From a virus, in IMG/VR virus record IMGVR_UViG_3300024280_000008, positions 1 through 38,572 of that record: a stretch of DNA of 38,572 nucleotides; one strand, given 5' to 3'. The notes below the pieces were generated by a model. It saw only the letters and a program-made list of their open reading frames with translations, was not told where the DNA came from and ran no database searches. The position numbers and the translations under genes are program-made. Within the stretch, counting starts at the first letter, position 1. Each line of letters starts with the position of its first letter. Shown piece by piece: positions 3,801 to 36,367 of this stretch.

Positions 3801-4003
3801 ATCCTGACGTATCAAGTATTGAGCATAATTGCCTTTGGACTAATTGCAGTAAAAAAACAATAAGCATTTTTTGCCAAGAACACTATTTGTTCAAAGAATG
3901 TCGATACGGTTTGTACGACCTCAAAACCAACAATAAAGGTTTTCGGAAATGGGCAATTAAAAGAATATATAAATATATTAAATATAAATTATTTCACTTA
4001 TGA
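3794..4003 (+). CDS. Small Cys-rich hypothetical protein, 69 aa
   Basis: Overlaps the glycosyltransferase end by 7 bp and the dehydratase start by an ATGA junction, so coupling supports it as real. The N-terminal half has several Cys/His residues (CLWTNC, C-x2-H, KEC) that could bind a metal; the C-terminus is strongly basic and aromatic. Much more AT-rich than its neighbours, perhaps a recent insertion. Function unknown. Confidence 0.55.
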   Translation: MVNPDVSSIEHNCLWTNCSKKTISIFCQEHYLFKECRYGLYDLKTNNKGFRKWAIKRIYKYIKYKLFHL

Positions 4004-4998
4004 AGAAACTACTTTTAACAGGCGCAGCTGGATTCATTGGGAGCCACTTTCTTGAGCATGTGCTTATCAACACTGACTGGGAAGTAACCTGTGTATCATC
4101 ATGGTCACATAAGGGAACACCAGAACGTATACAACGTGCCATGCGCGGTCAAGAACATCGTGTAACTGTTATCACTCACGACCTATCAGAACTCTTTACT
4201 GAAACAACCAAAAAGAAACTCGGCAAGTTTGATTACATTGTAAACTTCGCGGCTGACTCTCATGTTGAGCGCTCTATTGACGACCCTGTTCCATTTGTAA
4301 AGAACAACGTGGGTGTAGCACTCACTATGCTGGAGTTTGCTAGAGAATACCCCCCTGATGTATTTGTACAGATTTCTACCGACGAAGTTTATGGCGCGGC
4401 ACCCGTTGGAACTAACCACAAAGAATGGTCGCCGATACTTCCAAGCAATCCGTATTCAGCATCTAAAGCCTGTCAGGAAGCTATCGCTATCTCATACTGG
4501 CGCACTTACGGCGTACCCGTCGTCATCACAAATACGATGAATAACTTTGGTGAAACTCAGGATGGTGAAAAGTACATTGCCATGCTTATCAGGCAAATTA
4601 ACAACGGCGAGACAGTAACCGTACATGGTAATGAAGACTATATTGGCTCGCGCTTCTACCTACACGCGCGCAACCACGCAGACGCAGTTCTTCACATTCT
4701 AAAGAGCGCGCCAACTAAGTACGTCGATAACAACGAGATTGTTATGCCAGACCGCTACAACGTAGTCGGTGATGAGGAATTAAACAACTTAGAGATTGCA
4801 GAAATGGTTGCGGAGATTCTAGGCAAGGAACTTAAATACGAACTTAAAGATTTCCACCACACCCGAAGCGGGCATGACCGTCGCTACGCTCTTGATGGGA
4901 CAAAGCTAAAAGAGTCAGGCTGGGTAGCTCCTGTGCCATTAAGAGAATCGCTAAAGAAGTATGTGGGGTGGACATTAAATAATAATATTTGGCTATAA
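4000..4998 (+). CDS. rmlB: dTDP-glucose 4,6-dehydratase-type epimerase/dehydratase
   Basis: 332 aa, the usual length for RmlB and related extended short-chain dehydrogenases. Rossmann NAD motif TGAAGFIG at residues 7-14; 'ADSHVERSIDDP' after strand 4; STDEVYG at 126-132 with the Thr-Asp-Glu catalytic set of RmlB; YSASK at 152-156 for Tyr-x3-Lys; and a C-terminal 'GHDRRYALD...GW' as in RmlB. Known reaction: dTDP-glucose to dTDP-4-keto-6-deoxyglucose. RmlA, RmlC and RmlD are absent, so it would feed on a host precursor. The substrate nucleotide is inferred from family. Confidence 0.85.
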   Translation: MKKLLLTGAAGFIGSHFLEHVLINTDWEVTCVSSWSHKGTPERIQRAMRGQEHRVTVITHDLSELFTETTKKKLGKFDYIVNFAADSHVERSIDDPVPFVKNNVGVALTMLEFAREYPPDVFVQISTDEVYGAAPVGTNHKEWSPILPSNPYSASKACQEAIAISYWRTYGVPVVITNTMNNFGETQDGEKYIAMLIRQINNGETVTVHGNEDYIGSRFYLHARNHADAVLHILKSAPTKYVDNNEIVMPDRYNVVGDEELNNLEIAEMVAEILGKELKYELKDFHHTRSGHDRRYALDGTKLKESGWVAPVPLRESLKKYVGWTLNNNIWL

Positions 4999-5001
4999 TT
5001 T

Positions 5002-5586
5002 ATGGCAAAGAAAACAACAAAGAAAGCAGTAGTTAAGGAAGTAGAACCATTACGAATTGACCTCGGCTGTGGGCCTAACAAGCGTGAGGGCTTTAAGGGT
5101 GTTGATATGTTCCCGATGGACAACGTAGACATCGTATGTAATCTCGCAAAAGACAAGTGGCCGTTTAAGGACAACTCAGTAGACGAAGCCCATGCTTCAC
5201 ACTTCCTCGAACACCTCACTAACCTTGGTGACAAGTGGGAACGCACACACTTCTTTAATGAGCTATACCGTGTACTAAAAGTAGGCGCACAAGCAACTCT
5301 TATCTTCCCTCACTGGTGTTCTAATCGCTACTATGGCGACCCTACACACAAGGAACCGTTTAGCGAGATGGGCTTTTGCTACTTAGACAAGGACTGGAGA
5401 CTAGCACAAGCACCTCACACTGACTCTAAATGGCTTAAAAACGGCTACTCTTGCAACTTTAATTGGTCATACGGCTACTCACTACGACAAGACCTTGTAG
5501 CAAGGAATCAAGAGTTTCAAATGAACGCCTTGAATACTCAAAAAGAAGCCGCACAAGACATCATCGCTACCATCACCAAGAAATAA
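5002..5586 (+). CDS. SAM-dependent methyltransferase, class I
   Basis: 194 aa. Motif I is D-LGCG at 20-24, with 'GVDMFP' as the acidic SAM-ribose loop and 'FLEHLTN...ELYRVLKVGAQATLIFP' as the later core strands, the layout of methyltransferase type 11/COG4627-like proteins. It begins 3 bp after the dehydratase stop, so the substrate is probably the sugar or glycan made by the two genes upstream (inference). The cassette ends at the terminator that follows. Confidence 0.8.
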   Translation: MAKKTTKKAVVKEVEPLRIDLGCGPNKREGFKGVDMFPMDNVDIVCNLAKDKWPFKDNSVDEAHASHFLEHLTNLGDKWERTHFFNELYRVLKVGAQATLIFPHWCSNRYYGDPTHKEPFSEMGFCYLDKDWRLAQAPHTDSKWLKNGYSCNFNWSYGYSLRQDLVARNQEFQMNALNTQKEAAQDIIATITKK

Positions 5587-6633: not shown

Positions 6634-6822
6634 ATGATTATCTCAAAAAACGCAGTCGCAATCTTAGTACTATTTCTATCATTTATCGGTCTAGAGGTTA
6701 CAGAAGACGGTCTATGGGAAGTGGTCTCAGCAATCACAACCATCGTTTCATTTGCTGTGATGATTTGGAATCAAGTTAAAAGAACAGATGTGTATAACTT
6801 CATCTTCAAGAAAAAGGACTAG
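6634..6822 (+). CDS. Holin-like small membrane protein
   Basis: 62 aa, 2 bp after the HExxH gene. Two predicted transmembrane helices (about residues 5-21 and 27-46) with a short acidic turn (EVTEDG) and a basic C-terminus (FKKKD), typical of class II phage holins such as the r1t type. It would open the inner membrane at lysis; context agrees. Confidence 0.7.
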   Translation: MIISKNAVAILVLFLSFIGLEVTEDGLWEVVSAITTIVSFAVMIWNQVKRTDVYNFIFKKKD

Positions 6823-6824
6823 TG

Positions 6825-6830
6825 TATACT
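6825..6830 (+). promoter_or_regulatory. Promoter for a short RNA (TGTATACT)
   Basis: Extended -10 just after the holin stop. The predicted start falls at 6836-6838, the first base of a perfect hairpin. Confidence 0.4.
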
Positions 6831-7387: not shown

Positions 7388-7690
7388 TCAATAATCTGGG
7401 TTCTTAATAGTCGCCTCAATTTCAGCGATATATTCCTCTTTAACACTATCAGCTACTTTCGTCATTTCCGCGTCGTATAGGGCATTATATGCCTCTACAG
7501 CGCGTGCTTCGATGTCTGCCTTAGCTTTCTCTTGTGCTTCGGCAATTCTTTTATCTAATGACTGTATTTCTACAATCTTTTCTACCTCTACGACTCGTTC
7601 TGGTACGATTACTTGCGTACTAGGAACGAAATAAAGTACACCTCCAATTATTACTCCCAACATCGCTATCCCTGCGATGATTAGTTTCAT
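7388..7690 (-). CDS. Membrane-anchored coiled-coil protein (spanin-like, or anchor half of the lysozyme)
   Basis: 100 aa. The ATG at 7690 was chosen because the sequence starts MKLIIAGIAMLGVIIGG, an N-terminal transmembrane/signal-anchor helix; the upstream extension crosses a hairpin. Residues 35-98 are charged and helical (VEVEKIVEIQ...AKADIEARAVEA), the layout of Rz-like inner spanins and of anchored stalks. It ends in TGA, and the lysozyme domain continues in the same frame. Expected location: inner membrane with the coiled coil outside. Confidence 0.7.
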   Translation of the reverse strand: MKLIIAGIAMLGVIIGGVLYFVPSTQVIVPERVVEVEKIVEIQSLDKRIAEAQEKAKADIEARAVEAYNALYDAEMTKVADSVKEEYIAEIEATIKNPDY

Positions 7691-7755
7691 GGTGTTTGTT
7701 TTTATATGTTTAAGTCTGAGTTTCCTAACTATCAAACGAATCTGATAGGGGTTAT

Positions 7756-7779
7756 AAAAGAGCATCTACGACGATGCCC
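7756..7779 (-). terminator. Terminator-like hairpin in the leader of the lysozyme operon
   Basis: On the minus strand a 7-bp stem with one G-U (7779-7773 with 7766-7760) and TTTT follow only 13 nt after the -10 at 7792-7797 and come before the ATG at 7690. It could be an attenuator or the end of a very short RNA. Confidence 0.5.
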
Positions 7780-7791
7780 TCTTACCTTATA

Positions 7792-7797
7792 ATTATA
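7792..7797 (-). promoter_or_regulatory. Promoter of the minus-strand lysis operon
   Basis: TTGGTATAAT on the minus strand. Two abutting DnaA-box-like 9-mers (7824-7841) lie 26 bp upstream of it. Confidence 0.65.
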
Positions 7798-7823: not shown

Positions 7824-7841
7824 TTATACACAGTATCCACA
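7824..7841 (+). promoter_or_regulatory. Tandem DnaA-box-like sites
   Basis: TTATACACA (7824-7832, fits TTATNCACA) directly followed by GTATCCACA (one mismatch). They lie 26 bp upstream of the minus-strand -10 at 7792-7797. Confidence 0.55.
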
Positions 7842-7847
7842 AGACCG

Positions 7848-8132
7848 TCAAACTCTCATCATTCCTCGAATCTTCTCCATTTCTTCTGGGTAACGTGTTG
7901 CCATGTATAGCATCGCCTCAGTGTCCTGTAAGCGCTCTTTAACGTCTGCTAGCTCCTGGAATAGCGCCATATCTGGGTCGCTCACTTCTTTCTTTTTCTG
8001 TAAGTCTTTATACTTTTTTAGTAGTGACTGCGCGTATATATCCTTTCCAATCAATGCTTGTTTAAGCAGTCTGATTTCCTCGTCATAAGACAAGACCATG
8101 TTTCGGTATGCTTCGTGAAATTTACTCTCCAT
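7848..8132 (-). CDS. Coiled-coil hypothetical protein, 94 aa
   Basis: The ATG at 8132 was chosen because a TATACAAT box ends 7 nt upstream (leaderless); the longer frame overlaps another gene. Highly charged and helical (ESKFHEAYRNMVLSYDEEIRLLKQ, KKYKDLQKKKEV). No family recognised. It sits between lysis-type genes, so a role there or as a small regulator is possible. Confidence 0.65.
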   Translation of the reverse strand: MESKFHEAYRNMVLSYDEEIRLLKQALIGKDIYAQSLLKKYKDLQKKKEVSDPDMALFQELADVKERLQDTEAMLYMATRYPEEMEKIRGMMRV

Positions 8133-8139
8133 GTGGCTA

Positions 8140-8145
8140 ATTGTA
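8140..8145 (-). promoter_or_regulatory. Leaderless promoter for the 94-aa gene
   Basis: TGGTATACAAT on the minus strand, 7 nt before the ATG at 8132. A TTATCCACA site (8176-8184) lies 30 bp upstream. Confidence 0.55.
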
Positions 8146-8175
8146 TACCACAGTACGGCTTTAAATAGCAACGGT

Positions 8176-8184
8176 TGTGGATAA
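8176..8184 (-). promoter_or_regulatory. DnaA-box-like site TTATCCACA
   Basis: Perfect TTATCCACA on the minus strand in the gap after the 53-aa gene, 30 bp upstream of the -10 for the 94-aa gene. Confidence 0.5.
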
Positions 8185-8185
8185 A

Positions 8186-8347
8186 TCAGTCCCAGAGGCG
8201 CTTGTGTATGAAAAAAGTAGCAACTCCAGCGAACAAGGAAGTGAGTAGTAATTCTGGGAGTGAGTGAGCGTTCATCGGAAGTGTAAGAGCCACGATAACA
8301 ATTAAAGTTCCTGTAAGTTTTATGAGTATCTGTAGGAGCTTTTGCAT
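8186..8347 (-). CDS. Small two-helix membrane protein, 53 aa (holin-like)
   Basis: ATG at 8347 lies 6 nt after a perfect TATAAT, so the mRNA is leaderless. It reads MQKLLQILIKLTGTLIVIV and has two hydrophobic helices (about 3-24 and 31-46) ending in HKRLWD. Size, two helices and basic tail resemble small holins, and it lies upstream of the lysozyme operon; a second holin or antiholin is a fair guess. Confidence 0.65.
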   Translation of the reverse strand: MQKLLQILIKLTGTLIVIVALTLPMNAHSLPELLLTSLFAGVATFFIHKRLWD

Positions 8348-8353
8348 AGCTCA

Positions 8354-8359
8354 ATTATA
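8354..8359 (-). promoter_or_regulatory. Leaderless promoter for the 53-aa membrane protein
   Basis: TTATAAT on the minus strand, 6 nt before the ATG, immediately after a terminator. Confidence 0.65.
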
Positions 8360-8392
8360 ACAAATAGAAAGAGCGCCTAGTGTGACGCTCTT
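8360..8392 (-). terminator. Terminator after the 84-aa zinc protein
   Basis: AAGAGCG/CGCTCTT stem (8386-8392 with 8369-8375) followed on the minus strand by TTTCTATTTG. Confidence 0.7.
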
Positions 8393-8424
8393 AACTGTTA
8401 TCGTACAGTCAGACGAGATGATGG

Positions 8425-8435
8425 TCACCTCCTTT
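8425..8435 (-). promoter_or_regulatory. Orphan strong Shine-Dalgarno / anti-SD complement
   Basis: AAAGGAGGTGA on the minus strand, an 11-nt complement of the 16S rRNA 3' end, begins at the last base of the 84-aa gene's TGA. No ATG, GTG or TTG follows at a usable distance. Confidence 0.45.
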
Positions 8436-8689
8436 CAGTCAGGGCGACAGTCCCTGCAAAAGCAGTATGCTGGATGATTGTCATTCAACATCGGCTTGAT
8501 TGGCTCCGCTTTCGGCAGCGGTTGTTTCTGTGACGCCTGAAACAAATCCATCTGTGCACGTTGTTGTGTCTCCCTTATGTGTTCGCGGTAATGCCCGCGA
8601 TTGCAGAAGTGTAGTCCGTGAATCTTGAACAGCATTAGCGATTCAAGTCTCAACGCCTTGCAGTAGGCGCAACGCTTTGTCTCCATCAT
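8435..8689 (-). CDS. Zinc-binding miniprotein, 84 aa
   Basis: Start at 8689 (ATGATG) set by a strong GAGGAGGT 7 nt upstream, rare in this genome; the frame before it crosses a terminator and an RNA. Two metal-type clusters: CAYC at 7-10 with C29/H33 (FCNRGH), and CFCRDC at 76-81. Probably a nucleic-acid or protein-binding zinc protein. Function unknown; the SD and GC-richer codons suggest a different origin from its neighbours. Confidence 0.7.
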   Translation of the reverse strand: MMETKRCAYCKALRLESLMLFKIHGLHFCNRGHYREHIRETQQRAQMDLFQASQKQPLPKAEPIKPMLNDNHPAYCFCRDCRPD

Positions 8690-8714
8690 GTGAAGAACCT
8701 CCTCTCTAGCTTTA

Positions 8715-8720
8715 ATTGTA
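8715..8720 (-). promoter_or_regulatory. Promoter of the zinc miniprotein
   Basis: TGATACAAT on the minus strand between the upstream terminator and the SD; leader of about 20 nt. Confidence 0.55.
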
Positions 8721-8730
8721 TCACTTAATA

Positions 8731-8830
8731 GAAAACCCACCTCGTAAGGTGGGGATAGTGGTGGTTCGACATGTGCATGTCTCTGGTTGCCCTGTAAGCA
8801 ATTGGTGGCGAAGGACATCCATGTCGAACC
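8731..8830 (-). ncRNA. Candidate structured small RNA, about 100 nt
   Basis: A minus-strand TGATATAAT (8837-8842) would start transcription at 8830, exactly the first base of an 11-bp perfect stem (8830-8820 with 8773-8763). About five more pairs follow inside it, and a small apical stem (TTGC/GCAA). After the closing strand comes ACCACC, then a perfect terminator (8736-8753). Promoter, fold and terminator line up to the base. It is not a canonical tRNA: no T loop or D loop. It overlaps no convincing CDS. Confidence 0.6.
8736..8753 (-). terminator. Terminator of the 100-nt RNA
   Basis: CCCACC/GGTGGG stem with a 6-nt loop and TTTT on the minus strand. Confidence 0.8.
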
Positions 8831-8836
8831 GTATTC

Positions 8837-8842
8837 ATTATA
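8837..8842 (-). promoter_or_regulatory. Promoter of the 100-nt RNA
   Basis: Perfect TATAAT preceded by TGA, immediately after another terminator; spacing of 6 nt to the start of the stem. Confidence 0.65.
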
Positions 8843-8850
8843 TCACGTAC

Positions 8851-8873
8851 AAAAAATCCCCCGAAGGAGATTT
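8851..8873 (-). terminator. Terminator after the 65-aa gene
   Basis: 8-bp stem (8873-8866 with 8861-8854, one G-U), TTCG tetraloop on the minus strand, then TTTTTT. Confidence 0.8.
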
Positions 8874-8925
8874 CATGTAAACCCGAATGTACAACCGTAG
8901 TTGCTTATTTAATATAGCACATGCC

Positions 8926-9123
8926 CTAACCCTGACAAGACGGGCAGGGGATAAGTTTATCTCGTACATCAATCACTCTAGGTAGGAATTTATAGCCAAA
9001 TTCCTGTAGTTTATATAATTCTAAAGCTCCCTTAGGAGTTACAACACAACAGTTCTTTCGCCCTTGAGGGTTTATGAAATAGATGGTCTCTCCAATGAGA
9101 GATTGAAAGAAGTTCTGTGACAT
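8926..9123 (-). CDS. Hypothetical protein, 65 aa, C-terminal CPSC
   Basis: Own promoter (TGGTAAAAT at 9150-9155) and own terminator. Reads 'IGETIYFINPQGRKNCCVVTPKGALELYKLQEFGYKF' and ends in CPSCQG, a possible half of a zinc site with the CC at 24-25. No family recognised. Confidence 0.65.
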   Translation of the reverse strand: MSQNFFQSLIGETIYFINPQGRKNCCVVTPKGALELYKLQEFGYKFLPRVIDVRDKLIPCPSCQG

Positions 9124-9149
9124 GGCTACAAATTAAGAGTAAGACTAGT

Positions 9150-9155
9150 ATTTTA
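9150..9155 (-). promoter_or_regulatory. Promoter of the 65-aa gene
   Basis: GGTAAAATAC on the minus strand, leader of about 20 nt. Confidence 0.5.
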
Positions 9156-9175
9156 CCATGCACGTTTTTTCGTAA

Positions 9176-9201
9176 AAAATGTAAGGCTCAAAGCGAGCCT
9201 T
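9176..9201 (-). terminator. Terminator of the metallophosphoesterase operon
   Basis: AAGGCTC/GAGCCTT stem (7 bp) followed on the minus strand by ACATTTTTT. Confidence 0.8.
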
Positions 9202-9226
9202 AACTGTGATTGTTACACCACAGATT

Positions 9227-9403
9227 TTAGTAGAGTTTGGAGAGGATGTGAATTATCTCGGCGTACTCACGAACGCAGCGCTTGTGAAACTCCATCGAGC
9301 CGTCTTTGGCTTTCTGGTGAGTGTATCCGAGATGAGAACGTAGCGAATCATAAGCAAGTTCGATTGCGCGTTCTATTTCTTCAGCACGTTGTTTCCTGTT
9401 CAT
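9227..9403 (-). CDS. Hypothetical protein, 58 aa
   Basis: Starts 7 bp after the phosphoesterase stop with AGGTG before its ATG. Helical and basic: MNRKQRAEEIERAIEL...SLRSHLGY, ending IIHILSKLY. Ends just before a terminator. No family recognised; co-transcription suggests it accompanies the phosphoesterase. Confidence 0.65.
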   Translation of the reverse strand: MNRKQRAEEIERAIELAYDSLRSHLGYTHQKAKDGSMEFHKRCVREYAEIIHILSKLY

Positions 9404-9410
9404 GAGTCAC

Positions 9411-10667
9411 CTAGAAGTTGTGAGTGAAGCGAGCGATTTGTCCTTGGTCTAGGTCGTGGACAAATGCTTCAACAGCAGGAATGTTGATGTAGTTTTGTTG
9501 GGCGTGCCAAGCGTCAGCCTCCGATGGAGAGCGTACCGTTTCGACATGCACTAGATTGCCATTGTTCTTGCCCTTAGCAATCATCACCACACCATTGTAG
9601 TCTTTTTCCTTTGGCCCTTTACGGCCATTGCCCTGTTCGTACACCATTTTGTGGTGCTTATCACCTTGGTAACAATAGGTGAAGCGTGTTTGACCGAGGG
9701 CCGAACGAGCTTCCTGCATAACGCTACCAATAACTGCGTCTACTTTGCTGTCACCATGTTGGAACATGATGAGGTTGTCGCCGTAGACAAAGTACTTACG
9801 TGGAGTATTAGCCAGGACTTCTTTTTTGAAGTGGACTCGCTTGTTATTCCACAGGCGGTTCGCAATCATCTGCGATACAGACCAACCCGAGAGTCGGTCA
9901 TGGTTCGAGCTGACATGCGTAAGCCAGACGTCATGATTCTTCGTGAGAGCTTCGATATACTTGACGTACATCTCGACCGCCAGAAGCATCATGGATTCGA
10001 CACTGCTGGTAGCGTCTTGGGGCGTGCCGTTGGTGGTCGTGTACTTGTTGCTGTCCACATGAATGATGTCGTTCCCAAGAGGGAGTAGAACATCAGTGAT
10101 TCCAAGTGGCTTGGCATACTCGTAAAGGCGAGCTTGACCTTCCATAACGCGACGGACTGCTTCATCCGAGCTATATGTGCGGTCAGTGCGAACTTTCTCA
10201 CACAGTTTACCAATGTGAACATCGAAGTTGGCAGGAACCAACAGACGATGGTGCTTGTAGCTCACCCTTTGTACAGGTGGGCTTTCAGCGCGTAGGCGAG
10301 CCATGAAGTTCTCAATGGCTTGTTGGTCGTTGACGATGGCTTCGGTGTTAACGAAGTAGCTAGAGTAATCTTTGGTTTTGTGCCAGAAAGCACGCCAAAG
10401 GTCGAATGGAAGATTGTTCTGCTCACAGTGGAGACGGAACGCAGCTTCCTGCTGGTCGCTAGGCTTAGACATTTCACTATCTCCTTTCAATGAGCTGTCT
10501 GCATCTATTTTACCACGATGAGCGTTGTCTCTATTTGGGTGCTCCAGACCCATTTTCTTTGCTCGCTTTATTACGTTTGTTTTGTTCCGCCCGACAATCC
10601 TACAAATCTCTCTTATTGATAAGCCTCTATTGTAACCATCACGTATCTGTTGGTTAATGTTTTCCAT
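9411..10667 (-). CDS. HTH-metallophosphoesterase fusion
   Basis: 418 aa from a leaderless ATG (10667, 7 nt after TATAAT). Residues 12-42 form a resolvase/transposase-like helix-turn-helix (LSIREICRIVGRNKTNVIKRAKK). From 145 on there is a calcineurin-like phosphoesterase: D149-x-H151, GND 198-200, SNHD 254-257, HGD 304-306 and GDKHH 335-339 give the five metal-binding motifs. Phage members act on nucleic-acid phosphoesters; the substrate here is unknown. A strong internal SD (AAAGGAGAT) precedes Met66 at 10472, so a second product without the HTH is likely. Confidence 0.85.
   Translation of the reverse strand: MENINQQIRDGYNRGLSIREICRIVGRNKTNVIKRAKKMGLEHPNRDNAHRGKIDADSSLKGDSEMSKPSDQQEAAFRLHCEQNNLPFDLWRAFWHKTKDYSSYFVNTEAIVNDQQAIENFMARLRAESPPVQRVSYKHHRLLVPANFDVHIGKLCEKVRTDRTYSSDEAVRRVMEGQARLYEYAKPLGITDVLLPLGNDIIHVDSNKYTTTNGTPQDATSSVESMMLLAVEMYVKYIEALTKNHDVWLTHVSSNHDRLSGWSVSQMIANRLWNNKRVHFKKEVLANTPRKYFVYGDNLIMFQHGDSKVDAVIGSVMQEARSALGQTRFTYCYQGDKHHKMVYEQGNGRKGPKEKDYNGVVMIAKGKNNGNLVHVETVRSPSEADAWHAQQNYINIPAVEAFVHDLDQGQIARFTHNF
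10472..10489 (-). promoter_or_regulatory. Internal ribosome binding site before Met66 of the phosphoesterase
   Basis: AAAGGAGAT 8 nt before ATG on the minus strand, one of very few true SDs in the genome; predicts a shorter isoform of 353 aa. Confidence 0.6.
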
Positions 10668-10674
10668 TACTCGT

Positions 10675-10680
10675 ATTATA
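10675..10680 (-). promoter_or_regulatory. Leaderless promoter of the phosphoesterase
   Basis: GGTATAAT on the minus strand, 7 nt from the ATG. A TTATCCACA (10707-10715) lies 26 bp upstream. Confidence 0.65.
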
Positions 10681-10706
10681 CCCTTGACAAATACGACGAA
10701 AAACAG

Positions 10707-10715
10707 TTATCCACA
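10707..10715 (+). promoter_or_regulatory. DnaA-box-like site TTATCCACA
   Basis: Perfect match, 26 bp upstream of the phosphoesterase -10, in the same orientation and distance as the site at 7824. Confidence 0.5.
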
Positions 10716-10723
10716 AGTATTAC

Positions 10724-10775
10724 AAAAAATCCCCTTGTGAGGGATTTCGTGTCTGCGAAGCGCGGCCTGCCTGTC
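10724..10775 (-). ncRNA. Candidate short RNA, about 50 nt
   Basis: A minus-strand TGCTACAAT (10782-10787) predicts a start near 10775, and a strong terminator (AAATCCC/GGGATTT, then TTTTTT) ends it at about 10724. No ORF. The rest of the gap up to 10882 shows no convincing gene. Confidence 0.35.
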
Positions 10776-10882
10776 TTGGTTATTGTAGCATATCGTGGGC
10801 TATTAAAGGGGGACAGTCGTTTGGGTTTAGCGCCATGCACGGCTGACTGCTTGCATACACCCCTTTAGTAACCAGCGATACC

Positions 10883-10972
10883 CTATATTACCATCTTCTT
10901 CACAATCTCAAAACATCTTTCACACAGTCTATAGATAGTAGGGCGACGGTAACATTTGTTGCAGATGGGCAT
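10883..10972 (-). CDS. 29-aa zinc-finger miniprotein
   Basis: Starts 1 bp after the upstream gene. MPICNKCYRRPTIYRLCERC has C4-x2-C7 and C17-x2-C20, a complete treble-type zinc site in 29 residues. Last gene of the early operon. Function unknown. Confidence 0.5.
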   Translation of the reverse strand: MPICNKCYRRPTIYRLCERCFEIVKKMVI

Positions 10973-10973
10973 G

Positions 10974-11180
10974 TTAGTAAGCTCGGTCAATAGGAAACCA
11001 ATAGCTAAAACGAATGATTATACCTTTGTATTGACTCTTGCCTAACGATTCTCCATCTTTCGGCATTGTGTGAATTTTGATAATTCCAAAATCGAATAAA
11101 TGCCAGCCCATTTCACTCATGCGGAAATAGCTTTTCTCAAAAGGTCTGAACCAAATTTGCCACTTTAATGTCTTTTTCAT
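10974..11180 (-). CDS. Hypothetical protein, 68 aa
   Basis: ATG at 11180 overlaps the stop of the gene before it (ATGA). Aromatic-rich: KWQIWFRPFEKSYFRMSEMGWHLFDFGIIKIH...FSYWFPID, a small beta-rich fold. No family recognised. Confidence 0.65.
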   Translation of the reverse strand: MKKTLKWQIWFRPFEKSYFRMSEMGWHLFDFGIIKIHTMPKDGESLGKSQYKGIIIRFSYWFPIDRAY

Positions 11181-11284
11181 AACAAACAAAACTCAACTAA
11201 TAAATTCAAGGGTGTGCAGGGGGTTGTTAGCATGTTCTGTAGGGTGCATAGTACTTCTGCTGTGACTGTGAGTGTGGTGGTCAT
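11177..11284 (-). CDS. 35-aa miniprotein
   Basis: Joined to both neighbours by ATGA overlaps (start 11284, stop 11177-11179), which is good evidence for translation. MTTTLTVTAEVLCTLQNM...LNLLVEFCLL is Thr/Leu-rich and weakly hydrophobic. Function unknown. Confidence 0.5.
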   Translation of the reverse strand: MTTTLTVTAEVLCTLQNMLTTPCTPLNLLVEFCLL

Positions 11285-11472
11285 GATTTTATGTGAAATA
11301 TCGCTTCTGTCGTTCCAGTTGAAGTGCTGTAGGATTCTAATTTTTCGATGTTTTTCATGGCGTATTTAAGTTCTCTTAACGCCGCTTTCTTTCCTGCTTG
11401 AAATCCCTCTCGATAAGCCGCTTGAAACTCAGCTTTTTCGTTAGGATTAAATGTGTTTAGACTTGGACTCAT
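11281..11472 (-). CDS. Hypothetical protein, 63 aa
   Basis: Has both an ATGA overlap with the upstream ORF and a GGTATTAT box 6 nt before its ATG, so it may also be made from a leaderless mRNA. Helical: FNPNEKAEFQAAYREGFQAG then KKAALRELKYAMKNIEKLE. No family recognised. Confidence 0.65.
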   Translation of the reverse strand: MSPSLNTFNPNEKAEFQAAYREGFQAGKKAALRELKYAMKNIEKLESYSTSTGTTEAIFHIKS

Positions 11473-11564
11473 ATTTTTATAATACCATCTTGTAATACTA
11501 CACCTCTCCCTTTAATAACTTTCTTTTTATAAGCTACACATCGTTTGCAGGTACAGTGTTTCAT
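11469..11564 (-). CDS. 31-aa basic miniprotein with CTCKRC
   Basis: Begins 1 bp after the 89-aa gene and ends in an ATGA overlap. MKHCTCKRCVAYKKKVIKGR is basic with three Cys; possible nucleic-acid or metal binding. Confidence 0.5.
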   Translation of the reverse strand: MKHCTCKRCVAYKKKVIKGRGVVLQDGIIKI

Positions 11565-11565
11565 A

Positions 11566-11835
11566 TTACTCTGATAAATCTACACTGTACTTTTGGGCGA
11601 TGACTTCAACCTTAACGTAGTCAATAACGTGACACTCCCAGTCATCAAAGTATGCGGTTGCCAGTATCTCCCTCACCATCTCCCCCTTCTCCTTTTCATA
11701 CTGGTCGGCTTGGGACTTTAGGGTGGTGCGGATAAAGTGTTCTACTTCAACATAAGTTTCAACTGGTATTGAGCCGTCTTTTACAAAGAACTTTGTCTCA
11801 AACTGTTTTACAACGTCTTCTATATCTTTACTCAT
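11566..11835 (-). CDS. Hypothetical protein, 89 aa
   Basis: ATGA overlap with the 128-aa gene. Acidic and helical: MSKDIEDVVKQFETKF, EVEHFIRTTLKSQADQYEKE. The ending '...KVEVIAQKYSVDLSE' is unremarkable. Early-operon protein of unknown function. Confidence 0.7.
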   Translation of the reverse strand: MSKDIEDVVKQFETKFFVKDGSIPVETYVEVEHFIRTTLKSQADQYEKEKGEMVREILATAYFDDWECHVIDYVKVEVIAQKYSVDLSE

Positions 11836-12218
11836 ACAGTTTCTTTAACCTCCAGTAATCTTTGAACTTCTGTGAGGGCGATTCTGCGTTCGTTTAATCT
11901 AATGCCGTAAACTTCGGCTGTTTCTTCGTCTGGTGAAATCACCGTACTGTTCTTCATCTTCTCAACCTCCTCACTTACTTGTTTGAGAGTGTTGGCGATG
12001 AGGGTGTTTATATCTTCGTCAGCAAGAGTAAACGGTTCTTCCACATGACCCTCGGATGCGTGATATAGAGCAAGTGCCTCTCGTATGTGATTACTGGTTC
12101 TATGCTGACATCTTTGTAGTAGTGTTTCCTCTACAGTATCTTTAGGCATCTCGTTGTGTGACATGTGGTTAGTGACTGTAGTACCAAATCTGTCACTTCG
12201 GCTTTCGTTATCTATCAT
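11832..12218 (-). CDS. Hypothetical protein, 128 aa
   Basis: Start overlaps the stop of the 34-aa gene. A charged, helical protein (SNHIREALALYHASEG, INTLIANTLKQVSEEVEKM, RIALTEVQRLLEVKE). No catalytic motif seen; family not recognised. Confidence 0.7.
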   Translation of the reverse strand: MIDNESRSDRFGTTVTNHMSHNEMPKDTVEETLLQRCQHRTSNHIREALALYHASEGHVEEPFTLADEDINTLIANTLKQVSEEVEKMKNSTVISPDEETAEVYGIRLNERRIALTEVQRLLEVKETV

Positions 12219-12319
12219 ACAATCAAAGCAATTACTGTGCTGATAATAATTCCGAGAATAAACCCTGCTCTGAATCCTGAATTTCTACTTTTCTCTACGT
12301 CATTTCCTGTGTAGCTCAT
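12215..12319 (-). CDS. 34-aa single-pass membrane miniprotein
   Basis: MSYTGNDVEKSRNSGFRAG followed by one transmembrane helix (FILGIIISTVIALIV). ATGA overlap with the next gene supports translation. Confidence 0.55.
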   Translation of the reverse strand: MSYTGNDVEKSRNSGFRAGFILGIIISTVIALIV

Positions 12320-12329
12320 ACATCAAAGA

Positions 12330-12464
12330 TTAAGTAATAAGTTCAATAACAATCATTGCTAGTAATATACCAACACCTCCCCACATCAATACGGGTATTG
12401 CACCCATTAGAAGCCCTGTACCAAACATAAGGATTTTTATTTGTTGGTTAGTTAGTTTCGGCAT
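12330..12464 (-). CDS. 44-aa two-helix membrane miniprotein
   Basis: MPKLTNQQIKILMFGTGLLM followed by hydrophobic, Gly-rich helices (GAIPVLMWGGVGILLAMIVIELIT). Stop 11 bp before the next gene. Unknown function; early membrane protein, perhaps acting on superinfection. Confidence 0.55.
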   Translation of the reverse strand: MPKLTNQQIKILMFGTGLLMGAIPVLMWGGVGILLAMIVIELIT

Positions 12465-12487
12465 AAGTTATGGATTAAGTAATAAGT

Positions 12488-12712
12488 CTAGTAAGTTTTA
12501 GTTGAACCCTCTCCACTACTACCCACTCTTGCGTCTGTTTCTGAATAGCCCGCGTTTTTTACTCTCTCGTAAAGAGTTTTGTCAGTTTCAAGGTTTCTTT
12601 CAACTGGACTCATTATTTCTGACAGTTCATTCACTCGGTCTATAATTCGATTGATTGTTGCCTGTGTCGTGTAGTCGTGGGTTGGCTCTGATAATTTTTC
12701 TAGTTTCTTCAT
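12488..12712 (-). CDS. Hypothetical protein, 74 aa
   Basis: ATGA overlap with the 77-aa gene. Helical middle (INRIIDRVNELSEIM) and a Gly/Ser-rich tail (ARVGSSGEGSTKTY). No family recognised. Confidence 0.65.
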   Translation of the reverse strand: MKKLEKLSEPTHDYTTQATINRIIDRVNELSEIMSPVERNLETDKTLYERVKNAGYSETDARVGSSGEGSTKTY

Positions 12713-12942
12713 ACATCTTTTTCTTTAACCTCTACTTCGACTAACTTCACTACAAAACCTTTGTATTTATTAGCACAACTCAAAGCTTCTTCTAGAGTTG
12801 TAAACGGCATCATTACAGTTTCAGTGTCGCTGTATTGTGCAGATTCATAACCCATTGGCATTTTGTAAGTAAACTCTACATCGGGTCTGCTGTCTTGTAA
12901 GTTTTTGTTGCTTTTACTGTTATATAGAACTAAATATTTCAT
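12709..12942 (-). CDS. Hypothetical protein, 77 aa
   Basis: Overlaps both neighbours by 4 bp. It reads MKYLVLYNSKSNKN, then 'MMPFTTLEEALSCANKYKGFVVKLVEVEV', a small alpha/beta ferredoxin-like pattern seen in phage accessory proteins. Function unknown. Confidence 0.7.
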   Translation of the reverse strand: MKYLVLYNSKSNKNLQDSRPDVEFTYKMPMGYESAQYSDTETVMMPFTTLEEALSCANKYKGFVVKLVEVEVKEKDV

Positions 12943-13115
12943 ACCATCTCAATTACTTGAATAAACGCATCTACTACCATCGTATTCCAGTAAAGGAATG
13001 TAACGAGCGCAACTACTCCTGCACCCATCGCTACATACGACCAGAAGTCACTTTGTTCTCCCTTTATCTCTCTAGCAGTACGTTCTGGGTACTGGCGGTA
13101 TTTTGTGAGTTTCAT
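12939..13115 (-). CDS. 58-aa membrane protein
   Basis: ATGA overlaps on both sides. Basic N-terminus (MKLTKYRQYPERTAREIKG), then one transmembrane helix (FWSYVAMGAGVVALVTFLYW). Function unknown. Confidence 0.6.
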   Translation of the reverse strand: MKLTKYRQYPERTAREIKGEQSDFWSYVAMGAGVVALVTFLYWNTMVVDAFIQVIEMV

Positions 13116-13327
13116 GAATTTGTTTTACTAACTTCTTTGTATAAAACACCGTTTACGAACACTTGCGATGGTTTTTCTTGTGTTGTTATGTGAAGTGACG
13201 GCTCCTCTAATCTTTCCACACTTACTTCTTGCCAAGAGCTTATGATTCCTAATAGCTTTCTTAGTTCGTAGGTTACTTTATGTTTTGCTGATAATTGAAC
13301 GATTGGTTTTGATTGTGTAGTTGCCAT
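13112..13327 (-). CDS. Hypothetical protein, 71 aa
   Basis: MATTQSKPIVQLSAKHKVTY, then a helix (ELRKLLGIISSWQEV) and a beta ending (SQVFVNGVLYKEV). ATGA overlap downstream. No family recognised. Confidence 0.65.
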   Translation of the reverse strand: MATTQSKPIVQLSAKHKVTYELRKLLGIISSWQEVSVERLEEPSLHITTQEKPSQVFVNGVLYKEVSKTNS

Positions 13328-13349
13328 TCTAATATTACTTTTTTACAGG

Positions 13350-13436
13350 TCACTGATTAAACTGCTTTAATGCTCGGTTGCCTAGTCCATGGAAATAAAC
13401 TTTCTTCTTGCCCTTAGTCCATTTGATGTGTTTCAT
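13350..13436 (-). CDS. 28-aa basic miniprotein
   Basis: First ORF after the promoter at 13464-13469. MKHIKWTKGKKKVYFHGLGN is very basic; may be a real peptide or a leader ORF. Confidence 0.4.
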   Translation of the reverse strand: MKHIKWTKGKKKVYFHGLGNRALKQFNQ

Positions 13437-13463
13437 ACTTGTTACTTACTTGCTAACATATAC

Positions 13464-13469
13464 ATAATA
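13464..13469 (-). promoter_or_regulatory. Promoter of the distal early operon
   Basis: TGCTATTAT on the minus strand with a TTATCCACA site 27 bp upstream (13497-13505). Confidence 0.6.
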
Positions 13470-13496
13470 GCAAGTATCTAGGATATAGCAAACAGG

Positions 13497-13505
13497 TTAT
13501 CCACA
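13497..13505 (+). promoter_or_regulatory. DnaA-box-like site TTATCCACA
   Basis: Perfect match directly after the stop of the winged-helix gene and 27 bp upstream of the next -10. Confidence 0.5.
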
Positions 13506-13507
13506 GC

Positions 13508-13705
13508 CTATTTAGGCTTATAAATCCCCCTCCTTTGCTTGTCTATAGCTCCTTTCTCTATTAATGCAATCAAGTGAAATGCACAGGCTTGTCTAGTGAA
13601 TCCAAAGTGTTCAATGACATCTTTTATTGACGCATACACTTTATGTTCTTTGACGTAGGCTTTGAGGAATAGGTAGACTTCTTTTTGTCTCGGCGTTAGT
13701 TTCAT
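13508..13705 (-). CDS. LexA-type winged-helix DNA-binding protein
   Basis: 65 aa and only the DNA-binding domain: LTPRQKEVYLFLKAYVKEH, 'SIKDVIEHFGFTRQACAFHLIALIEKGAI' as the recognition helix and wing, as in the LexA N-terminal domain. The peptidase domain is absent, so it cannot self-cleave. Likely a small transcriptional regulator of the early genes or a LexA competitor (inference). Confidence 0.75.
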   Translation of the reverse strand: MKLTPRQKEVYLFLKAYVKEHKVYASIKDVIEHFGFTRQACAFHLIALIEKGAIDKQRRGIYKPK

Positions 13706-13706
13706 A

Positions 13707-13940
13707 TTACTTTGTTTTCTTAGTCCATCTGTACTTTTTTCCTAAATCTCCAGTATGGTGTGATGTTTCGACTAGCATAAAGCACTGGGTATAGTTACCA
13801 TCCCCATCAAGAAAGTACATTTCTATTTCGTCTTGTTTGTATTCTGGGTTATATCTCACGTCTACAACTATTTGAATAACCTTATCTATTTCTTGTTTTA
13901 GGGCGGTTTCTATGTTCCCACCAGTAACTGTTTCTTTCAT
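13707..13940 (-). CDS. Hypothetical protein, 77 aa
   Basis: ATGA overlap upstream and a 1-bp gap downstream. 'VIQIVVDVRYNPEYKQDEIEMYFLDGDGNYTQCFML' is beta-rich; the C-terminus is basic (KKYRWTKKTK). No family recognised. Confidence 0.65.
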   Translation of the reverse strand: MKETVTGGNIETALKQEIDKVIQIVVDVRYNPEYKQDEIEMYFLDGDGNYTQCFMLVETSHHTGDLGKKYRWTKKTK

Positions 13941-14323
13941 ATCGTAGGCTCTTCAAAATTATTTGGGTAGTCTATGTTGCTTGATAATTTCATCGCATCT
14001 AGTAGTAACTTACCTTTCTCCTCATCGTTCGGGAATGGTGGTAGTTCCATTTCAAAGTTTTCTGCAAAGAAGCGGACAAAATGGTCGTATAGTTTGTCTA
14101 TCTCCCCTGCTTTCTTAAGTTCCGTAGTGCTCTTAGTTCCATATAGCGCACGTTGTAGCGTCTTCCACATAGCTTTAATGAACTCTGGTGTCATGTCCAT
14201 TCGCATTACTTTTGACATAACTAACTTAGCGTCAACGCTGTTTTTGTTGCACTCGTCAGCGACCTGCTGAAACCATAAATGCATTGCTTTGTTTTGTGTG
14301 TCTGTGCGGAATTGCTTTTCCAT
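13937..14323 (-). CDS. Conserved phage protein beside recombination genes
   Basis: 128 aa. 'TQNKAMHLWFQQVADECN...TPEFIKAMWKTLQRALYGTKSTTELKKAGEIDKLYDHFVR' matches a pattern I know from many tailed phages near SSB and annealing genes. It is sometimes likened to NinB but its activity is not established. It follows the HNH nuclease by 1 bp. Probable role in recombination or DNA handling by context only. Confidence 0.7.
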   Translation of the reverse strand: MEKQFRTDTQNKAMHLWFQQVADECNKNSVDAKLVMSKVMRMDMTPEFIKAMWKTLQRALYGTKSTTELKKAGEIDKLYDHFVRFFAENFEMELPPFPNDEEKGKLLLDAMKLSSNIDYPNNFEEPTI

Positions 14324-14324
14324 G

Positions 14325-14762
14325 TTATTTTAAGTAGGTCTGCTTCCCCTCAGTTTCAAGATGGTGTTTTCTACAAAGCCACTGGACTCTTAACGGACTT
14401 CTGTAGTCAGTGTGGTGCGCCTCAACCCTTGCATCACCACAAACTTCGCAGGGGTTCTTCTGGAGTTTGCCGTCTCTAATTGAGTTGCTTATTTTTGCCC
14501 TAGCTTTATGTTTCCCTGGATTTCTAGTTCTTGAATTTTTTTGGTATTCAATTTTCTTAATCTTTCTTTCAGGTTTCTGCGCTCTAGCTTTTTCGTAGGC
14601 AATAATTTTTTCTTTAGATGCAGGGTCATAATACCTACGCCTTACGTCTTTCTGGGTACAAGATTTGCATTTATTCATTCTTCCGCCCCTTAGTTTATCG
14701 TGGACGTAGAATGATTCTAATTCCTTTTCTTTTTTGCACTTAAAACATTTTTTTGTTTCCAT
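14325..14762 (-). CDS. HNH endonuclease with N-terminal zinc ribbon
   Basis: 145 aa, with a leaderless ATG 6 nt after TTAAAAT. Zinc ribbon C6-x2-C9 with C32-x2-C35, a long basic middle, and an HNH-type end: C105-x2-C108, HH at 116-117, C130-x2-H133 (ARVEAHHTDYRSPLRVQWLC). Known members nick or cut DNA. It lies in the recombination operon but could also be a homing-type enzyme. Confidence 0.8.
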   Translation of the reverse strand: METKKCFKCKKEKELESFYVHDKLRGGRMNKCKSCTQKDVRRRYYDPASKEKIIAYEKARAQKPERKIKKIEYQKNSRTRNPGKHKARAKISNSIRDGKLQKNPCEVCGDARVEAHHTDYRSPLRVQWLCRKHHLETEGKQTYLK

Positions 14763-14768
14763 GTACCC

Positions 14769-14774
14769 ATTTTA
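14769..14774 (-). promoter_or_regulatory. Leaderless promoter of the HNH gene
   Basis: GTTAAAAT on the minus strand, 6 nt from the ATG at 14762. Confidence 0.55.
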
Positions 14775-14820
14775 ACACATTAAACTATACTAAGTATAAT
14801 TAAGGTTCTTATCAAGATTT

Positions 14821-15093
14821 TTAGAATGGGATTTCTACGTCGTCATCTGGTGGAGTAGCGGTATCTTCTTTCTTTGGTGGTGTCCAGTCGTTCAACTGGA
14901 AGTAAAGACTGCCTTTTTGAGACTTCTTCATGTCGATATTTACCCAACCATCAGGCTTAGCGTGCTTCTGTAAGAAAGCGATAAGTTCTGGTGCTTTGAT
15001 ACTGATATGTCCTTTAATAAATTCTGGTGCGCCCTCTTTTGGCTTCTTGAAAATCATTCCGTCTACAAATACTGCTTCTTTCTTTTGTTCCAT
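14821..15093 (-). CDS. ssb: Single-stranded DNA-binding protein
   Basis: 90 aa. Short beta-rich body (VFVDGMIFKKPKEGAPEFIKGHISIKA, WVNIDMKKSQKGSLYFQLNDW) followed by a Pro/acidic tail ending DDDVEIPF, which mimics the bacterial SSB C-terminal tip (DDDIPF) that recruits host repair and replication proteins. Next to ERF. Known role: coats ssDNA and presents it to the annealing protein. Confidence 0.75.
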   Translation of the reverse strand: MEQKKEAVFVDGMIFKKPKEGAPEFIKGHISIKAPELIAFLQKHAKPDGWVNIDMKKSQKGSLYFQLNDWTPPKKEDTATPPDDDVEIPF

Positions 15094-15106
15094 AAATTTA
15101 TGTTAG

Positions 15107-15514
15107 TTAGTTAAAATCAATCTCGTCTTCGTCTGGTAACGGCACGTTCTTCGCTACGGTCTTTGCACTTGCTAAATTACCGTCATCATCGTTGTCCTCT
15201 AAAGCTAGCATTGATATTAAAGCATAGCGTCGAGCGTAGGTAATCGCACCTCCGAGCTTTTGCATGTCGGTAGGGTTGATATATGGGACATATGAAACAA
15301 CTGAAGAGTCGTCTTCTGTGTCTTGTAGGATTGTCTCTAGGTAATCAACACATGGTCTTTGGATTACAACAATACCCAAATTGTTAAGTTCTGGTTTTAC
15401 CTTATCCAACACTTCATTAAGACTAGCGTAGTCATTCTTAAAGTGTGGGTTTCTTTTATCTTTCTTAATACTGATACCGAGCTTTTGGAACTCTAGTAGT
15501 TTTTTATAAATCAT
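15107..15514 (-). CDS. erf: ERF-family single-strand annealing protein
   Basis: 135 aa. The ERF core is clear: NPHFKNDYASLNEVLDKVKP near residue 22, 'GIVVIQRP', then 'GGAITYARRYALISMLALEDNDDDGN' at about 88-113. Short for the family (often about 200 aa). Anneals complementary ssDNA, probably for genome circularisation and recombination-dependent replication. Overlaps the 66-aa gene by 11 bp and precedes SSB. Confidence 0.9.
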   Translation of the reverse strand: MIYKKLLEFQKLGISIKKDKRNPHFKNDYASLNEVLDKVKPELNNLGIVVIQRPCVDYLETILQDTEDDSSVVSYVPYINPTDMQKLGGAITYARRYALISMLALEDNDDDGNLASAKTVAKNVPLPDEDEIDFN

Positions 15515-15704
15515 GTATTTCTAAGTTATGTCCTCGTCTTGTAATTCTATCTTGGCACTTCTTTAATTCTCTTAATGCGTTTTGTTGCCACTTGTCTAAA
15601 TGTTCTAGTATCTCAGGATTAAGATTACCAGTCATGTAAAGATGTTCGTAGTGTTTCATGTACACATCTTTGTCGAGTGGTGTTTCAGATGGGGAGGGCC
15701 ACAC
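15504..15704 (-). CDS. Hypothetical protein, 66 aa (GTG start)
   Basis: GTG at 15704, 1 bp after the previous stop, is the natural coupled start; Met16 (15659) is the alternative. Helical: MKHYEHLYMTGNLNPEILEHL, KWQQNALRELKKCQDRITRRG. Overlaps ERF by 11 bp. Unknown function. Confidence 0.6.
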   Translation of the reverse strand: MWPSPSETPLDKDVYMKHYEHLYMTGNLNPEILEHLDKWQQNALRELKKCQDRITRRGHNLEIHDL

Positions 15705-15705
15705 G

Positions 15706-15891
15706 TTAGATACCGAGAGAGGCGGTTAGTTCTTCTATTTCTGTTAATTTCTGTAGCAACTCACTTGCTATCTGTGCTTCTTCGTCTGTACGTGTTTCAC
15801 CATTACCGTCAATAAACTTCTTGTCGCTTCCGTTCCAACGCCCGTAGATTTGTTCCGCCTCCTTGTGCAGATACCCAAGTGTATAAATCAT
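15706..15891 (-). CDS. Hypothetical protein, 61 aa
   Basis: MIYTLGYLHKEAEQIYGRWN, then an acidic helical end (EEAQIASELLQKLTEIEEL). Follows the 35-aa gene by 1 bp. No family recognised. Confidence 0.65.
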   Translation of the reverse strand: MIYTLGYLHKEAEQIYGRWNGSDKKFIDGNGETRTDEEAQIASELLQKLTEIEELTASLGI

Positions 15892-15892
15892 A

Positions 15893-16000
15893 CTAATAAA
15901 CTAAATCTTCTTCTGATAAACCATTAAGTGCTAAATCAAATTCTTCTTGTTCGGTTTCTGCGTTAATGGTATTGATGTCCTCTGGTGTTGATGCGTACAT
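15893..16000 (-). CDS. 35-aa acidic miniprotein
   Basis: MYASTPEDINTINAETEQEE...LNGLSEEDLVY, fitted between two genes with gaps of 7 and 1 bp. Strongly acidic; function unknown. Confidence 0.5.
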   Translation of the reverse strand: MYASTPEDINTINAETEQEEFDLALNGLSEEDLVY

Positions 16001-16007
16001 AGTTAAA

Positions 16008-16454
16008 TTAAATTTCTTTTACCTTACCGTTTTTGTAGAAGATTCTAGCGTCTGGGTTAGTGGTGCCATACTCATCAGCTAAGTACTTCATGTAACTTTC
16101 TACCTTTGTAAAGATAACGTCGTATTTGTCTGGGTCTGGTTCATGTGTGTTCATAAATCTCCACGTAGTTTTTCCAAAGTCAGATTTGTATTTCTTCGCA
16201 ATCTTTTCAGCTTCTTCTTTTCCAAAAGTTCCGTACCTATAAGGTAAAACTATTTCGTGTGGTCTATTCCACCTATCTCCACAACAACCACAATCTTGAC
16301 CTGAACTACAACCGTCAAAGTAAACTCCTAAACTTTGTGCCTTTTCCATCGCTTCTTCTTCGTTGTTTGCTTCGATAACTACACGATGTGCTAGATGCTC
16401 GTCAGTAACCCAACTACCACCTGAATTATTTTGTGTAAATTCGTAGAAGTTCAT
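16008..16454 (-). CDS. Conserved phage protein with Cys cluster
   Basis: 148 aa. 'MNFYEFTQNNSGGSW...VVIEANNEEEAMEKAQSLGVYFDG' and the 'DCGCCGDRWNRPHE' cluster (four Cys around residue 49-57) are a pattern I recognise from many tailed phages, always of unknown function. The CxCC centre suggests metal binding. Second gene of the early operon. Confidence 0.75.
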   Translation of the reverse strand: MNFYEFTQNNSGGSWVTDEHLAHRVVIEANNEEEAMEKAQSLGVYFDGCSSGQDCGCCGDRWNRPHEIVLPYRYGTFGKEEAEKIAKKYKSDFGKTTWRFMNTHEPDPDKYDVIFTKVESYMKYLADEYGTTNPDARIFYKNGKVKEI

Positions 16455-16456
16455 AC

Positions 16457-16561
16457 CTAATCTCTAGGATTATCATACTGCTCATAAACTCTAGCTTCTT
16501 CTCGGTCTTGTCTTAATTGTTCTTCACGCTCGGTGCGTGCTTGGTCTTGTGTTGATTCCAT
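16457..16561 (-). CDS. 34-aa charged miniprotein
   Basis: First ORF of the early operon. MESTQDQARTEREEQLRQDR is a single charged helix. Stop 2 bp before the next start. Function unknown. Confidence 0.5.
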   Translation of the reverse strand: MESTQDQARTEREEQLRQDREEARVYEQYDNPRD

Positions 16562-16589
16562 ACTTAATTACTATCCTGTAATACTTGTC

Positions 16590-16595
16590 ATAGTA
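16590..16595 (-). promoter_or_regulatory. Main early promoter, leftward
   Basis: TGCTACTAT on the minus strand, 29 bp from a TTATCCACA site shared with the rightward promoter. Confidence 0.55.
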
Positions 16596-16624
16596 GCAAA
16601 GTCTGGGAGAATGTAAAGGTGTAG

Positions 16625-16642
16625 TTATCCACATGGTAAAAT
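16625..16642 (+). promoter_or_regulatory. Rightward early promoter with DnaA-box-like site
   Basis: TTATCCACA (16625-16633) is followed after 3 bp by TAAAAT (16637-16642), and ATG comes 6 nt later, so the mRNA is leaderless. The promoter at 36352-36367 shares this layout (TTATCAACATGGTAAAATA). Confidence 0.65.
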
Positions 16643-16648
16643 AAACAG

Positions 16649-16825
16649 ATGTACCGCTACTTCATACATGAAGAACCATGTCCCTGCGAGAAATGCCCAG
16701 ACATCACATACTTTGTCTTTGATAACGCTTTTGATGTTCCCTTACCCATCGGACAGTTTGATAGTAAAGAGAAAGCAATGGAATATTTAGACTTGCGGGT
16801 AAGTATAGATAAGGTGGGGGTGTAA
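16649..16825 (+). CDS. 58-aa protein with CPCEKC
   Basis: Leaderless ATG. MYRYFIHEEPCPCEKCPDI has a three-Cys cluster; the rest (DSKEKAMEYLDLRV) is an ordinary small alpha/beta fold. First rightward early gene. Unknown function. Confidence 0.6.
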   Translation: MYRYFIHEEPCPCEKCPDITYFVFDNAFDVPLPIGQFDSKEKAMEYLDLRVSIDKVGV

Positions 16826-36349: not shown

Positions 36350-36351
36350 TT

Positions 36352-36367
36352 ATCAACATGGTAAAAT
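36352..36367 (+). promoter_or_regulatory. Fibre operon promoter
   Basis: TTATCAACA, 2-3 bp, then GGTAAAATAG: same arrangement as the early promoter at 16625-16642, with one change in the 9-mer. Leader of about 5 nt to the ATG at 36379. Confidence 0.6.

Follow-up and report, generated by a model that had tools for sequence, protein, structure and literature searches.

Among the described systems closest to the element reported here are class II activator sites, e.g., that of CRP at -41.5, and the stoperators of cluster A mycobacteriophages, which are sites for a phage repressor rather than elements of host promoters. DnaA boxes are short DNA words that serve bacteria in initiating the replication of their chromosome through the protein DnaA. 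Moreover, both E. coli and Caulobacter use DnaA as a transcription factor (PMC8203912; PMC11317965). Low DnaA levels activate nrdAB by stabilizing the polymerase complex (PMC8203912), and at ori-lambda of phage lambda host DnaA raises transcription, possibly by contacting the beta subunit of the polymerase (Szalewska-Palasz et al. 1998, as related in PMC8203912). The E. coli chromosome contains only 32 perfect boxes, 13 of which are bound (PMC8203912; PMC11317965), and E. coli DnaA prefers paired boxes placed 2–3 bp apart (PMC11317965).

The promoters analyzed in this work, like those regulated by DnaA in E. coli and Caulobacter, carry DnaA boxes in their promoter regions. However, the regulon of those bacteria is compact and built on paired boxes, whereas here single boxes lie at one fixed distance from many promoters throughout a bacterial class. 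As at ori-lambda, host DnaA is predicted to act on phage transcription, although lambda encodes an initiator itself and DnaA exerts its effect at the lambda origin region, while here several early promoters share the host's own element. With stoperators, these boxes have in common that they are short asymmetric sites repeated in phage intergenic regions, but in this case the sites also occur in host genomes, at a fixed distance from promoters. The explanation that we consider rather probable is that single DnaA boxes serve for upstream activation in a class of promoters that is native to the Paceibacteria (Patescibacteria) and used by both host and phage.

The window, i.e., the whole stretch of DNA analyzed, is the complete IMG/VR record IMGVR_UViG_3300024280_000008 (38,572 bases), which contains tailed-phage genes for a large terminase, a portal-like protein, and a major head protein. 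Its leftward early genes encode an exonuclease, an Erf annealing protein, an endonuclease-VII-like protein, and a LexA-type winged-helix (wHTH) protein. The latter (13508-13705) consists of 65 aa, lacks the peptidase half, and has a DnaA box just past the end of its gene; in the related phage G2, a similar gene end is found with the box word flipped. Genes for a glycosyltransferase-like protein, a nucleotide-sugar epimerase/dehydratase, and a methyltransferase follow one another at 3087-5586 as a small sugar-modification cassette. Terminator-like hairpins are in excess between positions 6500 and 17500 (21 vs. 8.3 in shuffles), several of them at 8369-9202, and this excess resembles genuine intrinsic terminators separating small early genes. 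No match to named phages was returned when the right half of the window was searched with megablast, and scans of the window for Rfam families and tRNAs gave nothing either.

The initial annotation placed a DnaA-box-like word 26, 26, 27, 29, and 30 bp upstream of the minus-10 boxes at 7792, 10675, 13464, 16590, and 8140, respectively, and all five distances proved exact. The TTATACACA box at 7824..7832 (plus strand) reads TGTGTATAA toward the leftward minus-10 TATAAT at 7792-7797, 26 bp away, which precedes an ORF at 7388-7765; a further box-like word, GTATCCACA, abuts this box at 7833-7841. The TTATCCACA box at 8176..8184 lies on the minus strand; its arrangement is the forward one, with 30 bp to the leftward minus-10 TACAAT (8140..8145), and the ATG of the leftward ORF is found 7 nt further on at 8132. 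The three other TTATCCACA boxes are on the plus strand. The first (10707..10715) reads TGTGGATAA toward the leftward minus-10 TATAAT at 10675..10680, 26 bp distant, with the start of the exonuclease gene (9411-10667) 7 nt beyond. The second (13497..13505), which also lies just past the end of the wHTH gene, is 5 bp upstream of the minus-35 TTGCTA (13491-13486) and 27 bp from the leftward minus-10 TATTAT (13464..13469), with a small ORF (13350-13436) downstream. The third (16625..16633) is located where the leftward early genes and the rightward genes diverge; the leftward minus-10 at 16590..16595, with TTTACA (16617-16612) as its minus-35, is 29 bp away. Position and distance had been given correctly for this minus-10, but its hexamer is TACTAT, a 4/6 match. 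As had also been noted, the same box is 3 bp from a rightward minus-10 (TAAAAT, plus strand, 16637..16642), which is followed by an ATG at 16649. This layout recurs on the plus strand with the variant box TTATCAACA, followed by TGG-TAAAAT (minus-10 at 36362-36367) and the gene 36379-37341; the variant occupies 36350..36358 and not 36352 as annotated. While every box originally listed is right, a tentative copy was missed, namely TTATACACA on the minus strand at 6789..6797 (TGTGTATAA on the plus strand), 27 bp before TATACT (6825-6830) and inside the end of the ORF 6634-6822. The two orientations had likewise not been separated: along transcription, the boxes at 7824, 10707, 13497, and 16625 read TGTGGATAA or TGTGTATAA (26–29 bp), and only that at 8176, among the five, reads TTATCCACA (30 bp).

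Enrichment and fixed spacing of the boxes are established both in the window and in related phages. The window holds four copies of TTATCCACA vs. 0.3 in shuffled sequence, and five correctly spaced TTATCCACA or TTATACACA boxes with a minus-10, compared to a mean of 0.02 in 1000 dinucleotide-preserving shuffles, none of which reaches five. This spacing test was prompted by the window's own spacings, and the relatives and hosts are independent of the window. Terminase and exonuclease searches yielded 23 further records, giving a set of 24 phage records; the early region has little in common between the window and the three relatives compared in detail. This set contains 35 copies of TTATCCACA, a 4-fold over-representation with respect to 300 permuted words, which average 8.0 copies and never attain 35. 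A minus-10 is found at 29–32 bp for 12 of the 35 copies vs. 1.7% for permuted words, with possible extra peaks at 3 and 40 bp (forward) and 26–28 bp (reverse). Moreover, the word avoids genes, as only seven copies are inside long ORFs vs. 26 expected. Intergenic placement was judged from ORFs that start with ATG and span at least 100 aa, calls of at least 40 aa with three start codons being too greedy. A generic sigma-70 scan did not separate promoters from shuffles (24 vs. 23.7). In the relative G15, TTGTCCACA-TGG-TATAAT reproduces the layout of the rightward promoters at 16625 and 36350, and the box 3 bp from the minus-10 at these three places possibly marks a second function of the site, which may oppose the first.

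In both hosts and phages, these promoters combine the minus-10 TATAAT with a degenerate TT(G) minus-35 that starts ~22–23 bp before it and, thus, the box ends some 3–9 bp before the minus-35. Taking the minus-10 start as -12, an assumed position, the box abuts the minus-35 and its center falls at ~-43 to -47, near the -42 of class II activators, likewise just upstream of a weak minus-35. However, the CRP site is palindromic, whereas the candidate site is a 9-bp asymmetric word used in either orientation. Sequence features expected of DnaA-regulated promoters are also found, i.e., a consensus box TTATNCACA in the promoter region, fixed spacing, and few copies in genes. No enriched partner offset was detected for a second box 2–3 bp away, as in the double boxes of E. 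coli. In addition, the ATGs at 8132, 10667, and 16649 come 6–7 nt after the minus-10, so that these early mRNAs are probably leaderless.

A terminase profile gave close matches in two Paceibacteria assemblies (L055 = G040, Candidatus Paceibacterota, and G809; E ~1e-132), while the nearest cellular relatives of the terminase are mostly found in Bacteroidota prophages, with up to ~45% identity. The pattern TTATCCACA-N29-32-TATAAT occurs in 157 of 285 genomes of the class of G040, compared to 3 for the reversed-pattern control, which establishes the class-wide presence of the element in Paceibacteria; about 45% of the sampled class lack a perfect match. In a phylum-wide sample around G040, 44 of 286 genomes are positive (control 7). 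Genomes of Bacillota type (phylum inferred) are near background (9/100, control 5), as are the much larger genomes of Bacteroidia (13/99, control 5). The phage host is probably a Paceibacterium, although the link is indirect: the predominance of Bacteroidota prophages among the near terminases speaks against it, while the Bacteroidia do not exhibit the element above background.

When the gap was opened to 15–45 bp in 73 Paceibacteria genomes, the forward arrangement peaked at 30 bp (24 copies; 69 at 28–33 bp among the 150 matches listed) and the reverse one at 28 bp (21 copies; 85 at 26–31 bp among the matches listed). The p values against a flat distribution, 1e-13 and 6e-24, respectively, are rough, since copies were taken as independent and the peak ranges were picked after seeing the data. 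It is this sharp spacing, and not the reversed-pattern control, that corrects for the effect of intergenic location. Furthermore, host contigs totaling 695 kb have TTATCCACA as one of the three most frequent 9-mers located 24–41 bp upstream of TATAAT, and 6 of its 25 copies are inside long ORFs vs. 22 expected. An equal density within genes or a loss of spacing in relatives would have spoken against the annotated motif; the scarcity in genes of phages and hosts and the spacing kept in relatives and host genomes do not refute it. A transcription-factor site, as initially proposed from the regular spacing, is strongly supported by a spacing that is fixed, recurs in relatives, and extends through the class in Paceibacteria.

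The host genes behind this element recur across genomes, including greA (three times), type IV pilin (four), mechanosensitive channel (three), and HlyD-type adaptor (two), together with mraZ and dnaN, the latter and its promoter being identified from sequence. Rfam matches at the host loci L469 and L485 were considered as products of box promoters and rejected because they lie upstream of, and divergent from, that promoter. In the Paceibacterium G288, a box precedes a LexA-like (S24-type) gene (contig C1, 371713), and through this gene a link of DnaA to DNA-damage control is possible.

Regarding the protein that reads the box, host DnaA is the best candidate, as judged from the sequence evidence. 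The TTATCCACA word is the exact DnaA box consensus, DnaA domain IV is encoded in 70 of 73 Paceibacteria genomes, and the box-reading residues PRQ and (R/K)DH(T/S)TV are kept in the Paceibacteria DnaAs inspected. Clusters of TTATNCACA adjoin dnaA in two hosts (L556 and L557), G288 has boxes in the interval from dnaA to dnaN, and several other host dnaA genes have single TTATCCACA copies nearby. Two Paceibacteria, G062 and G104, encode extra DnaA C-terminal domains besides a full-length DnaA. Host DnaA had been suggested from the outset alongside a phage mimic and the 13508 wHTH protein; since the same architecture is present in host genomes, neither of the latter is likely to be the primary factor. 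The positional evidence would be equally good for any factor and, in addition, the AG/AC preference before the box and the lack of box pairs are unlike E. coli. It is, thus, conceivable, though unlikely, that another Paceibacteria-specific transcription factor, or RNA polymerase itself through an UP-like element, recognizes a site equal to the DnaA box. Nevertheless, such a factor would have to share the exact DnaA consensus, AG is equally frequent before non-promoter copies, and the DnaA-tolerated variants TTATACACA and TTATTCACA cluster beside dnaA in the same hosts, while the use of either orientation is unlike an UP element.

A different effect of the bound protein would be repression, in which DnaA or a LexA-like repressor of the phage keeps early genes off until a signal arrives. 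At 16625 and 36350, a protein on the box would obstruct the polymerase, given the distance of 3 bp to the rightward minus-10; the phage carries the LexA-type wHTH gene ending at 13508, and many E. coli DnaA targets are repressed (PMC11317965). We regard repression as improbable, as the main class of boxes lies upstream of the minus-35 and not over it, the minus-35s are degenerate as at activated promoters, and the host-wide spread speaks against a phage repressor. Finally, it is very improbable that the boxes constitute a phage replication origin or titrate DnaA, their nearness to promoters being a by-product of intergenic location. In favor of this reading, no replication initiator was recognized among the window proteins scanned, four box-like sites form a mild cluster within 7824-8184, and near 17 kb the cumulative GC skew passes through a local minimum. 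However, in phages and hosts alike the spacing to the minus-10 is fixed to within a few bases, a regularity that no by-product could produce; the boxes are dispersed across 9 kb; the skew changes where the genes change strand; and the origin role raised in the initial annotation gains no support beyond the boxes being present.

Returning to activation by host DnaA, a box just upstream of the degenerate minus-35, in either orientation, would bring the protein that occupies it, most probably host DnaA, next to the part of RNA polymerase that binds the minus-35. We infer that DnaA at this position would recruit the polymerase to weak promoters or stabilize it there, in the manner reported for nrdAB and ori-lambda (PMC8203912). 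In Paceibacteria, the element is present at pilin, greA, mechanosensitive-channel, dnaN, and other promoters and, in the phage family, at early promoters, so that the phage would respond to host DnaA. The phage may, thereby, read the level or nucleotide state of host DnaA when early genes turn on, and a coupling of early expression to host replication, as first suggested for this phage, would be a plausible consequence.

Both the role of DnaA as a transcription factor and the use of DnaA by phages are already known. Literature searches, with subscription papers and preprints outside their scope, found no relevant paper on DnaA boxes or promoter motifs in Patescibacteria. Since no description was found in the searched literature, the class-wide promoter type with a single box at a fixed position, common to Paceibacteria and their phages, appears to be undescribed.

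Paceibacteria are ultra-small and believed to possess few transcription factors and, to our knowledge, promoter rules in Patescibacteria are almost unknown, since few of these organisms can be grown. The class-wide, exactly spaced box offers a testable candidate for a global regulator in Patescibacteria, helps to predict their promoters and regulons from sequence, and constitutes a signature for tying orphan phages to Paceibacteria hosts. We put forward tentatively, as something close to an even possibility but short of it, that DnaA is a broad fixed-position activator across Paceibacteria that would tie pili, GreA, and other functions to the replication cycle, and that phages hard-wire their early transcription into it, infection being gated by the replication state of the host. 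The element also offers a specific means by which the early expression of the phage may depend on host replication state.
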